Assembly: GCF_004522105.1 (NCBI RefSeq)
Contig: NZ_SPUJ01000004.1
Span: 186,001 to 250,000 of the forward strand
Length of the DNA: 64,000 bases
Direction: 5' to 3'
Origin: Nocardioides sp. 1609
GTDB taxonomy: Bacteria; Actinomycetota; Actinomycetes; Propionibacteriales; Nocardioidaceae
Shown: in pieces, positions 25,720 through 30,985 of the stretch
Layout: each line of letters opens with the position of its first letter
Numbering within the stretch: position 1 is the first letter of the stretch
Translations under genes and position numbers: made by a program
The notes under the pieces: model-generated
The model's input: the letters and a program-made list of their open reading frames with translations, nothing else
Databases searched by the model: none
What the model was told of the DNA's origin: nothing

Positions 25720-26568
25720 TCAGGCGAAGACGCCGGCGGGGAACGCCCCGGCCTTGAGCGCGCGGATCACCAGCGGCTTGCCGATCGCCCCGAGCCGCTC
25801 GCGGCCGTCCTCGCCGAGGGTCGCCCACGGCGCGAGCGCCATCTGGTCGGTCGCGGCCTCCACCGAGGCGCGCTGGGCGAGGCCGGCCTCGGTGAGCGCG
25901 CCGTCGTCGTCCACCAGGCCGCGCCCGGCGAGCGCCGAGACGGCGCCGGCCCACTGCTCGTCGGACCAGCCGCGGGTCAGCTTCGCCGCGGGCTCGGTGA
26001 AGCCGGTGCCGGTCGCGGTGTGGGTCACCAGCGACTCCAGGCCGGTGAGCCCGTGCGAGAGCAGCGCCGCGACGTGCCCGTCGCCGCGGTACTCGCGCAG
26101 CAGGCTCAGCCCGTGCCACAGCGCGAGGTGCGGCTCGTCGGGCCAGTCGAGGTCGGCGTGCGCGGCGTACAGCGGACGGCCGGCGGGGTCGCACCCGGCG
26201 ACGGCGGCGCGGGTCAGGTCCGCGGCCTCGGCGACCTCGGGCGCGGCGATCGCCTCGTCGCCGAGGAGCCGGCGGTACGCCGCGTCGACCCCCCGGAACC
26301 GGGCGGCCACCACGTCGGCCGGGCTCGCGGCCTCCCAGACGGCCGGGACGAGCCTCGCGACCAGCGCCGGGTTGAAGACGAAGAACGTCGCCGTGACGGT
26401 GCCCGCGCCCACGGCACCCATCGGGGCCGAGCGCGACGCGAAGTACGTCGCCCGGCCCGTCCGGACGCCGAGCGCGACGAGCTCGGCGTCGACCTCCGGG
26501 GCGAAGTAGCAGAGGGCGTGCAGCGTCTCGAGGGTGCGGGCCGTGCGGCCGGCGGCGGTGGCGTCCAC
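25720..26568 (-). CDS. SCO6745 family protein (MarR-like winged helix)
   Basis: A 282-residue protein matching the actinobacterial SCO6745 family: TARTLETLHALCYFAPEVDAEL, YFASRSAPMGAVGAGTVTATFFVFNPALVARLVPAVW and WHGLSLLREYRGDGHVAALLSHGLTGLESL are typical. The C-terminal third (LTRGWSDEQWAGAVSALAGRGLVDDDGALTEAGLAQR) is a winged-helix segment as in MarR-like proteins. Biochemical role not established. GTG 26568 is supported by TAGACA ending 6 nt upstream. It is upstream of nei2 in an operon. Confidence 0.82.
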   Translation of the reverse strand: MDATAAGRTARTLETLHALCYFAPEVDAELVALGVRTGRATYFASRSAPMGAVGAGTVTATFFVFNPALVARLVPAVWEAASPADVVAARFRGVDAAYRRLLGDEAIAAPEVAEAADLTRAAVAGCDPAGRPLYAAHADLDWPDEPHLALWHGLSLLREYRGDGHVAALLSHGLTGLESLVTHTATGTGFTEPAAKLTRGWSDEQWAGAVSALAGRGLVDDDGALTEAGLAQRASVEAATDQMALAPWATLGEDGRERLGAIGKPLVIRALKAGAFPAGVFA

Positions 26569-26601: not shown

Positions 26602-26898
26602 TCACGTCACCCAGGACCAGGTGCCGACCGCGCCGGCGACGGCGAGCGCCGCGAGGTAGCCGAGCACCAGGCGGGTGTCACGCAGCACGCACCGCGACCG
26701 CTGGAGCCCGGCGCGCCACGCCCGCCAGTAGCCGCAGAAGCCGAGGACGGCGAAGCCGAGCAGGGCGACCGGTCCGAGGAGCCAGCCCAGCGCGGCGATC
26801 GTCGCGAACACGCACAGCCGCAGCGGGTCGTACGTCGCGGTGGACCCCGGCGAGGCGGTCGAGGTGGTCGGGCCGGTCGGGCCGGTCGGGGTGGTCAC
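26602..26898 (-). CDS. Small two-span membrane protein, last gene of radical SAM operon
   Basis: A 98-residue protein. A Thr/Pro/Gly-rich N-terminus (TPTGPTGPTTSTASPGS) is followed by TYDPLRLCVFATIAALGWLLGPVALLGFAVLGFCGYWRAWRAG (one long or two short membrane segments) and a last span at about 76-95. The arginine-rich loop RAWRAGLQRSR is probably cytosolic. The GTG start overlaps the radical SAM stop (GTGA), so translation is coupled. No known family recognised. It may anchor the enzyme to the membrane. Confidence 0.75.
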   Translation of the reverse strand: MTTPTGPTGPTTSTASPGSTATYDPLRLCVFATIAALGWLLGPVALLGFAVLGFCGYWRAWRAGLQRSRCVLRDTRLVLGYLAALAVAGAVGTWSWVT

Positions 26899-28484
26899 GG
26901 GAGGACCTCCAGCGGGTCGGGTCGCCCGGTCGCGGTCGACAGCCGGGTGCGGGAGAGCGGCGCCCACGCCTGGACGGCGCAGAACGGCGCGCACTGGTGC
27001 GCGGACGTCTCGGCGTTGACCGTCGCGACGTGCACGCAGCACTGGGTCAACCGCTCCTCGATCATCGTCGACATGTCCATGAACGGCTTGACCGTGATCC
27101 GGACGACGCGCTCGCCGAGCATCCTGCGCAGCCGCTTCCGCTGCCCGGGCAGCGCGGAGGACGCGAGCGTCGTGAGCGTGCCGATGCCGAGGTCGCAGTT
27201 CTCGCAGATGTCCTTCCAGACGGTGCCGATCGCCGGGTGCGACAGCGACGACTGCTCGCTCAGGAGGTCCAGCAGCGAGTCCTTGACGACCTTCCTCATC
27301 GTCGCCGGGATCGAGTCGTCGGCGATCCGGTTGGCCAGCACGTCGGGCTCGAGGTCGAGCCACTGCTTGAGCTTGTCGTGCCCGATCAGCGAGGTCAGCG
27401 AGCGCCAGGCGCCGGAGTCGTCGCGCAGCAGGTAGCCGACCGAGCAGCAGTGCGGGTGCGAGCACGGGAGGGCCGTGAGGTCGCGCCAGGTCACCTGGCC
27501 CGAGGTCTGCCCATCGAGCCGGGCGAGGACGCCGGTGTGCGTCAGCCGGTCGCTCGGGTCGATCCCCGACGAGCGGCCCGACCCGAACACGGGCTGGATC
27601 GTGACGCCGCCGACGTACGGCGTGTCGAGGCCGCGCTTGACGACGTGGCCGATCTCGTCGTCGTTGACCCCCAGGGCGGCGGTCATCGTGAGGGTCGTGA
27701 AGATGCCGGCGGCCGAGAGCCGGTCGAGCGCCCGGTCCTTGAAGCGCCGGATGTCGGCGCCGCGGTGGTGGGTCGAGGCCTGCGCCGACTCGCCGTCGAA
27801 CTGGAGGTAGACCTCGACGCGCTCGCGGTGCCGGGTCAGCAGGGCGAGCAGCTCGTCGTCCTGGGCGATCCGGAGGCCGTTGGTGTTGACGAGCACCCGC
27901 ACGACCGGGCGCCGGGCGACGGCGTCGAGCAGCTCGGCCAGGCGGGGGTACAGCGTGGGCTCACCGCCCGAGAGCATGAGCACGTCGATCCGGCCGTTCT
28001 CGCGGGACAGCCGGGTGTCGATCGAGGCGAGCACGGCCTCGAGCGGCGCCACCGACGACAGCGCCGGCGCCGACTCGGCGAAGCAGGTGGGGCAGCGCAG
28101 GTTGCAGTGGTCGGTGATGTCGGCGAGCAGGATGCAGGTGTGCTGGGTCTGCATCGCCGGCAGCCCGTCCGCGTAGGCCGCGGGCACCGGGGCGAAGTTG
28201 CCGGCCACGTCGGGCTGGTGCACCTTCGTGGGCGCCGTCCACTGCTCGAGGTAGGCGAGGATCTCGGGCGACTCGTCGTACAGCGTCGAGACGAGCCCGT
28301 GGTCGGGGCAGCCGCGCTCGAGCCAGACCCGGTCGTCGCGCACGGCGAGCCACCCGGAGAGCCGGCGCACGTCGGCGAGCGGCCGGTCGGGCACCTCCTC
28401 GTGGCAGTGCGGGCAGAAGGCGTTGACGTAGCGGTGGATCCGGTGGTCGCGCAGCGGCATCCCGGTGCCGGTGCCGGTGCTCAT
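26895..28484 (-). CDS. Tes-like radical SAM enzyme (MJ0619 / tetraether-synthase family)
   Basis: A 529-residue radical SAM protein with extra clusters. An N-terminal zinc-ribbon-like part has C24xxC27 and C59. The radical SAM motif is C127-x3-C131-x2-C134 in DHCNLRCPTCF, with LMLSGGEPTLYP following. Further Cys-rich segments are PCSHPHCCSVGYL, DICENCDLG and, near the C-terminus, QCCVHVAT (482-483) and QCAPFC (498, 502). This layout is that of archaeal Tes, which joins two lipid tails by C-C bond formation, and of MJ0619-type relatives. All genes of the operon overlap by 4 nt. A lipid substrate is supported by the adjacent Lgt-like gene; bacterial members are not functionally defined by this sequence. 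Confidence 0.78.
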   Translation of the reverse strand: MSTGTGTGMPLRDHRIHRYVNAFCPHCHEEVPDRPLADVRRLSGWLAVRDDRVWLERGCPDHGLVSTLYDESPEILAYLEQWTAPTKVHQPDVAGNFAPVPAAYADGLPAMQTQHTCILLADITDHCNLRCPTCFAESAPALSSVAPLEAVLASIDTRLSRENGRIDVLMLSGGEPTLYPRLAELLDAVARRPVVRVLVNTNGLRIAQDDELLALLTRHRERVEVYLQFDGESAQASTHHRGADIRRFKDRALDRLSAAGIFTTLTMTAALGVNDDEIGHVVKRGLDTPYVGGVTIQPVFGSGRSSGIDPSDRLTHTGVLARLDGQTSGQVTWRDLTALPCSHPHCCSVGYLLRDDSGAWRSLTSLIGHDKLKQWLDLEPDVLANRIADDSIPATMRKVVKDSLLDLLSEQSSLSHPAIGTVWKDICENCDLGIGTLTTLASSALPGQRKRLRRMLGERVVRITVKPFMDMSTMIEERLTQCCVHVATVNAETSAHQCAPFCAVQAWAPLSRTRLSTATGRPDPLEVLP

Positions 28485-28846
28485 GCGGCCGCGTGCGAGT
28501 TGCTGAGGGCCGCGATCAGGGCGACGCAGGCCCCGCCGACGACGATCGCCACGATCGCCCAGCCGATCAGGATCCCGATGCCCCACGGCCGGGTGGCGGC
28601 GGAGAACATCAGCCCGATCGCGACGAGGGGCACCACCGCGATGGCGACGAAGACCGGCGTGATGGTGTCGCCGGACGCGGCCAGGCCGACGACCGGTGCG
28701 ATGACCGACGCGACCCCACCGATCAGGGTCCCGAGGATGATCTGCGGCGCCCGCGACCGCTTCGGGGGCGGGCCGTAGCCGTAGCCGCCCGGCGGTAGCC
28801 CGGGTGGTCCGGGTGGTCCGGGTGGTGGTGGCGGGAGGTAGCTCAT
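28481..28846 (-). CDS. Proline-rich small membrane protein of radical SAM operon
   Basis: A 121-residue protein. The N-terminus (PPPPPGPPGPPG, then GGYGYGPPPKRSR) is a Pro/Gly cytosolic tail typical of actinobacterial membrane proteins. Three hydrophobic segments follow at about 37-59, 63-82 and 90-113. Start and stop overlap both neighbours by ATGA junctions, so it is stoichiometrically coupled to the Lgt-like and radical SAM proteins. Resembles DUF4190-like proteins in layout only. Function unknown. Confidence 0.75.
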   Translation of the reverse strand: MSYLPPPPPGPPGPPGLPPGGYGYGPPPKRSRAPQIILGTLIGGVASVIAPVVGLAASGDTITPVFVAIAVVPLVAIGLMFSAATRPWGIGILIGWAIVAIVVGGACVALIAALSNSHAAA

Positions 28847-29621
28847 CGGGTCCTCGCTGGTTCGAGTCGGTAGACGCCCTTGCGGGCCTGGACGACGATC
28901 CGGGCCGCCACCAGCGGCACCGTCAGGAGCAGGAACAGCTGGGGTCGGGTGAGGCCCATCCACGCGACCTCGTTGCCGCGGACGAGCTCGACCAGGAACC
29001 GGAAGACGCCGTAGCCGAGCAGGTAGAAGGTCAGCGTCTCGCCGGGGGAGACCAGCCGGTGCCGCAGCCAGCACCAGATCACGACGAACGCGGCGGCCTG
29101 GAAGGCGATCTCGTAGAGGAACGACGGGTGCAGGGGGACGCCGGCGGGTGCGCCGAGCCGCGCGGCCGCGTCGGCGTCCAGACGGATCCCGAACGCGGTG
29201 TGGGTGGGGGTGCCGGGCAGCTCGGTGAGGAAGCAGCCGACGCGGCCGATCGCCATCCCAGCGCGACGGCGGGGGCGAACAGGTCACCGGTGCGCTCGCG
29301 GTAGCCGACGATGCGCTTCGCGACGTGCACGCCGATCCAGGCGCCGAACAGCCCGCCGAGGATGCTGCGGTTGCCGTAGAGCCACTGCTCGGCGAGCGAG
29401 GCGTTGGCGCGCAGGTCGAGGTGCTGCAGCCAGGGTCCGAGCCGCATCAGGATCGCGCCGCCGACCAGCGCGCCGAGGACGACGTACCAGATGCGCTCGT
29501 CGGTCTGCCCGCGCCGGCGGGCCTCGACCACGAAGACGACGACGGCCGCGAGCACGCCCAATCCCACGAAGAGCGCGTGGGTCGGGATCGGGATCCCGAG
29601 GAGGTCGATGTCCGGCAGCAT
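28843..29621 (-). pseudogene. Lgt (prolipoprotein diacylglyceryl transferase) paralogue split by a frameshift
   Basis: Two frames join into one Lgt-like protein of about 258 residues. The first (from ATG 29621) has MLPDIDLLGIPIPTHALFV and runs to GDLFAPAVALG. The second begins MAIGRVGCFLTELPG and has LHPSFLYEIAFQ, both Lgt signature segments, and ends at 28843. The break is at about 29257, where GCGCTGGGATGGCG lacks one base relative to an in-frame ALGMAIGR reading. It may be a real mutation, a sequencing or assembly error in the G run, or a recoding site. The 3' frame has its own ATG (29256). Lgt moves diacylglycerol from phosphatidylglycerol to lipoproteins; a copy beside a radical SAM gene suggests another lipid substrate. 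Confidence 0.75.
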
Positions 29622-29677: not shown

Positions 29678-30946
29678 TCAGGCGGGGACCTTCGCGGCCG
29701 GCGCGAGGGTGACCTCCGCCTCGGCCCGCCACACCGCCGGCCGCGGCACCGCCCGCACCGTCGCGCTGAGCGTCGGGATCAGCGCGGTGACGGCGACCAG
29801 CGCGCCGAGGACGACGACCGCGCCGGTGCCGCCCAGCAGCGCCAGCGACGTCCCGGCGACGACGGGGGCCAGCGGCATCGCCGACATCGAGGCGAACTGG
29901 CTGAACGACTGGGCCCGTCCGACCAGCTCGGACGGCGTCACGGCGAGCCGGTAGGCACCCATGCCGGCGTTGCCCGCGGGGTTGAGGAGCAGGGTGAACG
30001 CGAGGGTGGCCGCGACCACGACGGGGCTGTTCCAGAGGGCCAGGGGCACGAGGACCGGCAGGAAGCTCCACGCGATGGTGATCGTGAGCCATCCGGTCGC
30101 GAACCGCTCCATGATCCACGGGGCCAGCACGGCGCCGAGGATCCCGGCCGCGCCGGCCGTGGTCTCGACCAGGCCGAGGTGGACCGGGTCGACGCCGTCC
30201 TCGATCAGGCGGAGCACGGCCACGAAGAACAGGGCGTTGACGACGAGGTTGGTCAGCGCCGACCAGCACAGCAGCGTGCGGAAGAGGGGGTGGCCGAGCA
30301 CGAAGCGGGCCCCGGCACCGAGGTCGTCGCGCACCCGCCGCCGCGGGCCGTCGTAGGGCGTGGGCGACAGGTCGGTCCGGATCCGGCCGAGCAGCACCCA
30401 CGAGACGGCGTAGGTGACGGCGTCCGCGGCGAACGGCGCCCACCGCGCCGCGGCGTACAGCGCGCCGCCGAGCGGTGCGCCGAGCAGCCCGGCGACGTGC
30501 TCGCGGGCCTGGTTCTGCGCGAGCGCGGTCGGCAGGTCGTCGCGCGGGACGACGGTGCGCACCGCGGACGTCTCCGAGGGAGCGAACGCGCCGGCGCAGA
30601 CGCCGGAGAGCAGCGCGACGACGAGCAGGTGCGCCGTCGTGAGGTGCCCGGCGATGCCGGCCGCCGCGAGCGAGGCGTAGAGCAGGACGCCGGCGCCGCT
30701 CGCCGTCCGCATCACGAGCCGGCGGTCGACCCGGTCGGCGACCACCCCCGCGGGGAGCAGGGTGCCGGCCAGGCCCAGCAGGTGCAGCGCCTCGGCCAGC
30801 GCGGCCGTCAGGGCCGAGCCGGTCAGCGCGTAGGCGAGCAGCGGGAACACGAACATGCTCATCCGGCTCCCGAGCGTGGACGCCGTCTGGCCGATCCACA
30901 GCGCGGTGAAGTCGTGGTTGCGGGCGAGGCTGCGGTAGCTGGACAC
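29678..30946 (-). CDS. MFS transporter (multidrug/macrolide efflux type)
   Basis: A 422-residue, 12-span major facilitator. HDFTALWIGQTASTLGSRMSMFVFPLLAYALTGSA is span 1, VADRVDRRLVMRT the motif-A loop, and a GAPLGGALY segment is in span 5. It resembles the macrolide-efflux/DHA3-like group. GTG 30946 is preferred because TATGGT ends 6 nt upstream; an ATG at 30982 falls inside the operator. It is divergent from an ArsR-type regulator, which is likely its repressor. It is 56 nt upstream of the Lgt-like gene on the same strand, so read-through into that operon is possible. Confidence 0.87.
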   Translation of the reverse strand: MSSYRSLARNHDFTALWIGQTASTLGSRMSMFVFPLLAYALTGSALTAALAEALHLLGLAGTLLPAGVVADRVDRRLVMRTASGAGVLLYASLAAAGIAGHLTTAHLLVVALLSGVCAGAFAPSETSAVRTVVPRDDLPTALAQNQAREHVAGLLGAPLGGALYAAARWAPFAADAVTYAVSWVLLGRIRTDLSPTPYDGPRRRVRDDLGAGARFVLGHPLFRTLLCWSALTNLVVNALFFVAVLRLIEDGVDPVHLGLVETTAGAAGILGAVLAPWIMERFATGWLTITIAWSFLPVLVPLALWNSPVVVAATLAFTLLLNPAGNAGMGAYRLAVTPSELVGRAQSFSQFASMSAMPLAPVVAGTSLALLGGTGAVVVLGALVAVTALIPTLSATVRAVPRPAVWRAEAEVTLAPAAKVPA

Positions 30947-30950
30947 ATCC

Positions 30951-30964
30951 GCACCATATGGTGC
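30951..30964. promoter_or_regulatory. Palindrome over the MFS -10
   Basis: GCACCATATGGTGC is a perfect 14-bp palindrome containing the MFS -10 TATGGT (minus strand, 30953-30958). A repressor here would shut off the transporter gene. Confidence 0.5.
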
Positions 30965-30985
30965 GCAATAGATGTTGCGCAATAG
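30962..30985. promoter_or_regulatory. Second operator in the MFS/ArsR divergent region
   Basis: TGCGCAA-N6-TTGCGCA (30962-30981) is a perfect inverted repeat; TGCGCAATAG also repeats directly at 30962 and 30976. It lies between the two divergent -10 elements and is probably bound by the ArsR-type protein. Confidence 0.5.

Follow-up and report, generated by a model that had tools for sequence, protein, structure and literature searches.

A radical SAM enzyme with the fold of archaeal tetraether synthase (Tes) and a diverged relative of the lipoprotein-lipidating enzyme Lgt co-occur across genomes and stay adjacent, together with two small membrane proteins. The cassette that they form, which occurs in numerous soil actinobacteria, was characterized in a 64,000-nucleotide stretch of the Nocardioides sp. 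1609 genome (contig NZ_SPUJ01000004.1, positions 186,001 to 250,000; here called the window). The gene association is strong, and the chemistry is what we infer from it. On balance the cassette is likely a lipid-modifying system, and there is good reason to expect its substrate to be a lipid or a lipid-linked molecule.

The cassette comprises four minus-strand genes, which in transcription order encode an Lgt-like protein (LgtL; 28843..29621), a membrane protein with a Pro-rich N-terminus and three hydrophobic segments (p family, assigned by a family HMM; 28481..28846), a Tes-like radical SAM enzyme of 529 amino acids (assigned by Pfam, NCBIfam and PDB matches; 26895..28484) and a small membrane protein with two hydrophobic segments (s family, present in 79 of 80 fetched loci; 26602..26898). 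An initial annotation of the sequence had described four overlap-joined genes on one strand, and these are present with four-base stop/start overlaps at all three junctions (ATGA, ATGA and GTGA, in order). At the first junction, the TGA stop of the Lgt-like gene (28845-28843) shares bases with the start codon ATG of the p gene (28846); at the second, the p stop (28483-28481) does so with the ATG of the radical SAM gene (28484); and at the third, the radical SAM stop (26897-26895) with the GTG of the s gene (26898). A gene for an HTH_67 family protein (25720-26568; 345 bits) lies directly downstream and is not kept alongside the cassette, and an MFS gene (29678-30982) adjoins it. In both same-genus carriers the MFS gene and the cassette are on different contigs, so the cassette is probably sited differently among related genomes. 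By neighbourhood clustering, the HTH_67, glycosylase and MFS genes that flank the cassette in the window are not members of it. The same clustering found no other conserved genes around the cassette, a conserved methyltransferase included; only antisense or lineage-specific ORFs recurred besides the cassette genes.

In the window, the reading frame of the Lgt-like gene is interrupted. A one-base frameshift near 29,255-29,265, missed in the initial annotation, splits it into an N-terminal ORF (29079-29621) and a C-terminal ORF (28843-29256). Both halves are well conserved and LgtL is a single ORF in the 78 fetched cassettes whose flanks are long enough; the frameshift could reflect either a genuine mutation or an error in the assembly. 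The assignment as an Lgt paralogue itself stands. Both parts exceeded the cut-off of Pfam LGT (PF01790; 24.9 bits), the C-terminal part with 71.9 bits and the N-terminal part with 25.9, and an intact relative scored 103.9 bits. The predicted LgtL model matched E. coli Lgt (5AZB) with a Z score of 13.9 over 225 residues. With the NCBIfam Lgt equivalog model (TIGR00544), the intact relative scored 64.8 bits, below the cut-off of 118.9.

The residues kept and lost in LgtL indicate how its function may have changed. R143, Y235, R239, E243 and R246, for which the roles in Lgt, including phosphatidylglycerol binding, have been described (PMC4728403, PMC13251419), were invariant in 23 LgtL sequences. 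Of the essential set Y26, R143, N146 and R239, only the two arginines are kept: Y26 is replaced by His and N146 by Cys in all 23 proteins, and both residues are essential in E. coli Lgt (PMC13251419). The same two replacements have been reported in MSMEG_5408, the second Lgt homologue of M. smegmatis, which is presumed to have low Lgt activity (PMC13251419). The source genome (4.83 Mb) encodes a separate, ordinary Lgt. H103 of Lgt was considered as an informative residue and dropped, as the ordinary Lgt of the genome also lacks it. Given the Y26H and N146C replacements, LgtL is probably not an ordinary lipoprotein-lipidating enzyme; its conserved residues suggest that it probably binds phosphatidylglycerol and serves a different acceptor.

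The radical SAM enzyme is genuinely related to archaeal tetraether synthase but forms a clade of its own. Pfam detected Zn_ribbon_HMPTM (43 bits) and Radical_SAM (69 bits) domains, in agreement with the N-terminal zinc ribbon and the C127/C131/C134 motif recognized in the initial annotation. That annotation had also called for HMM and structure comparison with Tes and MJ0619-like proteins, and the best PDB match by sequence and by fold was indeed MJ0619/Tes (7TOL), with E values of 2.7e-28 for the sequence search and 2.9e-39 for the profile search. Foldseek matched the predicted model to 7TOL with an E value of 2e-19, and VIA-align superimposed 392 residues (Z 19.4, rmsd 4.5; next family Z 14.7). 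The AlphaFold model was moderate (mean pLDDT 63, pTM 0.69; weak at the N-terminus, the radical SAM motif and the C-terminus), so the statement about the fold leans on the sequence match as well. Homology to Tes did not extend to membership: the enzyme scored 149.3 bits with the NCBIfam Tes model (NF045702), against a cut-off of 450, and its intact relatives scored 146-151 bits. The top family score was to TrsS (NF045646), with 200.7 bits against a cut-off of 490. In the tree, the cassette enzymes formed one clade (support 100/100), separate from TrsS-like enzymes and from Tes. A profile scan found no relatives in viral contigs.

The cysteine map shows some features of Tes kept and others lost. 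The rubredoxin-like CX2C...CX2H motif (C24/C27/C59/H62) and the radical SAM CX3CX2C motif (C127/C131/C134) are kept. C-terminal cysteines are found at positions 341, 346, 427, 430, 482, 483, 498 and 502, and C346, C482, C483 and C502 align with Tes C338, C455, C456 and C470; thus four of the five C-terminal Tes cysteines are kept. The Tes [Fe4S4]N ligands C73/C77/C80 are replaced by V100, D106 and P109, and none of the 11 cassette enzymes aligned has Cys at these positions. Tes Met439 corresponds to K466 and Tes Tyr459 to V486. Both Tes residues are conserved across 1000 archaeal homologues, and the M439A and Y459F/L mutants stay active (PMC9433317). C117, C341 and C430 are common to the cassette enzyme and TrsS-like enzymes and are absent from Tes, while C427, C498 and, mostly, C347 are specific to the cassette clade. 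The initial claim of a Tes-like enzyme therefore holds for homology and fold and not for Tes proper, whose score and specific residues are lacking.

The small membrane proteins are the other two parts of the cassette. The s protein carries DPLRLC and ARRxGLxRSxCxLxDTR motifs with two Cys that are invariant in 79 of 79 sequences; it has no lipobox, and its hydrophobic segment comes after the Cys. In the five cassettes of probable mycobacterial origin that were examined, the family HMM detected no s. The p protein matched no NCBIfam family and no Pfam family above cut-off. An impression from BLAST that it was not conserved was ruled out by a family HMM, which detected p near most cassettes. At control loci, the family HMMs found no s and gave p matches of at most 20 bits.

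The initial annotation had proposed a neighbourhood survey and made its reading depend on conserved linkage of the radical SAM and Lgt-like genes; the linkage is conserved. Among the best 80 of 372 relatives, the Lgt-like gene was near 78 and s near 79, and the two relatives without an Lgt-like gene were both at contig ends. Every ortholog with enough flank thus had the Lgt-like gene nearby, and a linkage that recurs across all testable orthologs is clearly more than chance. Family HMMs resolved several gene orders (R, radical SAM gene; L, Lgt-like gene): R-s-L-p in 38 loci, L-R-s-p in 21, L-p-R-s in eight, including the window, and p-L-R-s in six, the remainder being partial. On the tree, the position of the Lgt-like gene switched once and the full gene order changed at least 10 times. 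Pairwise identities of the radical SAM and Lgt-like proteins were correlated (r=0.92).

Co-occurrence was equally tight. Across the phylum, both orthologs were present in the same 10 of 396 genomes, the source genome included; besides the source genome, LgtL was found in 9/9 radical SAM carriers and in 0/387 others, and the Lgt-like score fell from 241 to 129 bits at the next match (229 and 207 bits for the two halves in the source genome). In a genus that, judged by similarity, is probably Mycobacterium, about a quarter of the genomes (50 of 198) encoded the radical SAM ortholog, and in all 50 the Lgt-like gene preceded it on the same strand at a distance of 103-873 bases. Three genomes of this genus had LgtL only: one copy lies at a contig edge, another in a genome that is 70% complete, and the third is degenerate. 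Fisher P values for these co-occurrences are descriptive, as they ignore shared ancestry. Within the genus of the source genome, the cassette was patchy, occurring in two of 58 other genomes at non-syntenic locations. It was also found on Mycobacterium avium and M. branderi plasmids (L161 7228-10548 and L162 5355-8548), where s was not detected. On a Persicobacter plasmid (Bacteroidota; L165 5277-7395), an overlap joins a Tes-like radical SAM gene to an Lgt-like gene whose product has the same Y26H and N146C replacements; s and p were not found beside this pair. The Persicobacter enzyme branches with the cassette clade (support 84/93, long branch). No Lgt-like gene was present beside the other Tes-like enzymes of the phylum or those of haloarchaeal plasmids. 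The initial annotation could match the pathway to none it knew in actinobacteria, and no published radical SAM-Lgt pair was found in the literature covered, which lies mostly outside subscription journals.

A lipid substrate is favoured because Tes is by far the best match as a homologue and in fold, because four C-terminal Tes cysteines are retained, and because the partner has the Lgt fold and phosphatidylglycerol-binding residues. The co-occurrence and parallel divergence of the two proteins, the persistence of four families together through about ten order changes, the pairing of both enzymes on a Bacteroidota plasmid and the existence of a bacterial tail-coupling enzyme, Mss, point in the same direction. 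The loss of the [Fe4S4]N cysteines, Met439 and Tyr459, a TrsS score above the Tes score in an enzyme whose TrsS-like relatives adjoin methyltransferases rather than lipid genes, and the moderate quality of the fold model (pLDDT 63) weaken it.

If the cassette modifies lipids, the small proteins would hold the radical SAM enzyme at the membrane, where SAM would be cleaved at the CX3CX2C cluster and hydrogen abstracted from an unactivated acyl-tail position of a phospholipid or diacylglyceryl-linked substrate. In Tes, a sulfur of the C-terminal cluster bonds to the first tail and so stores its radical, and the second tail is then coupled (PMC9433317); the C-terminal Cys-rich cluster domain of the cassette enzyme would capture the tail radical similarly, and the outcome would be either a C-C bond between two tails or some other tail modification. 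The radical-forming parts and a Cys-rich C-terminal domain are present with a different ligand set, so Tes-like coupling is possible. For LgtL, the conserved arginines would provide phosphatidylglycerol binding, and the protein would add a diacylglyceryl unit to that product or take one from it, with an acceptor other than an ordinary prolipoprotein. No PF06050 protein, which we take as a proxy for a Ger/PlsA-type ether enzyme, was found in the source genome; for this reason a coupled product would probably be ester-linked, and Ger-type ether lipids are not expected. Tail-to-tail coupling specifically is a tentative proposal. The full proposal, in which aerobic actinobacteria, many mycobacteria included, use radical chemistry to couple lipid tails on a diacylglyceryl unit that a transferase derived from Lgt handles, and so make an undescribed membrane-spanning lipid or lipid anchor, is more speculative.

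Other activities could be assigned to the same genes. The radical SAM enzyme might modify a peptide or a small membrane protein, such as s, that LgtL then lipidates. In favour of this, s is a small protein with two invariant Cys, peptide maturation is common among radical SAM enzymes, and a peptide natural product made via the lipoprotein pathway is known (PMC12636315). However, the absence of a lipobox and the placement of the hydrophobic segment after the Cys do not suit a substrate of this kind, the five probably mycobacterial cassettes yielded no s match, and the match to Tes is far above those to peptide maturases by both sequence and fold; we regard such maturation as unlikely. TrsS-like chemistry on a small molecule or other non-lipid substrate, which further bacterial enzymes of the superfamily may also use, with LgtL as a mere membrane partner, would explain why TrsS outscores Tes (201 vs. 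149 bits) and why C117, C341 and C430 are common with TrsS-like enzymes and not with Tes. It is a distinctly unlikely explanation for an enzyme that falls 290 bits under the TrsS cut-off, has no methyltransferase in its conserved neighbourhood, unlike TrsS-like relatives, and lacks the [Fe4S4]N-type Cys common in that group.

Coincidence, that is, unrelated genes co-travelling on mobile DNA, would fit the patchy distribution (2/58 same-genus genomes besides the source), the plasmid occurrences and the non-syntenic locations. Four families that stay together despite order changes, with no other gene conserved nearby, and a near perfect Lgt/radical SAM co-occurrence in two surveys make it highly improbable.

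Modification of a lipid thus remains the preferred reading. Bacterial Tes homologues have repeatedly been listed in genomes, without proven function (PMC8941075, PMC11868695), and the fixed pairing with a diacylglyceryl transferase relative provides a strong lipid hypothesis for one clade of culturable bacteria. If true, it would mean new membrane-lipid chemistry for actinobacteria, would give a function to diverged Lgt paralogues and would bear on which organisms produce the membrane-spanning lipids that serve as climate proxies. The initial interpretation captured a true, conserved association and pointed in the right direction, while its use of Tes as a label overstated membership and the frameshift escaped it.

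Among known systems, Tes (GDGT-MAS; MJ0619, 7TOL) shares with the cassette enzyme its fold over nearly the full length, the rubredoxin-like CxxC...CxxH, the CX3CX2C motif and four C-terminal Cys. The cassette enzyme differs in being bacterial, about 20% identical and adjacent to an Lgt paralogue, in lacking the [Fe4S4]N Cys, in having Lys for Met439 and Val for Tyr459, and in its extra Cys at 341, 427, 430 and 498. A methyltransferase neighbour (TrsM) is taken here as a defining trait of TrsS. The cassette enzyme has C117, C341 and C430 in common with TrsS (NF045646) and with the TrsS-like enzymes found in actinobacteria and haloarchaea, along with a large part of the C-terminal Cys pattern; its score is 290 bits below the TrsS cut-off, several TrsS-like relatives adjoin methyltransferases whereas the cassette has no conserved one, and most actinobacterial TrsS-like enzymes keep the [Fe4S4]N-type Cys that cassette enzymes lack. 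TrsS-like genes on Mycolicibacterium and haloarchaeal plasmids (L164 5977-8345; L166-L169) adjoin methyltransferases. The two of them that were scanned reached 283 and 324 bits with the Tes model. From these scores, some of the Tes homologues in the literature may belong to the TrsS-like kind. Mss of Thermotoga and Bacillota, a radical SAM lipid-tail coupling enzyme confirmed via E. coli expression (PMC11604127), was compared by description only: it joins fatty-acid tails and is reported to have a Tes-like architecture, but the producers studied are anaerobes, and no Lgt link was found for Mss in the text covered (PMC13274423). LgtL has the Lgt fold and keeps R143, Y235, R239, E243 and R246, but falls below the NCBIfam Lgt cut-off with two residues essential in E. 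coli Lgt replaced; in these replacements, Y26H and N146C, it resembles M. smegmatis MSMEG_5408 as reported (PMC13251419).
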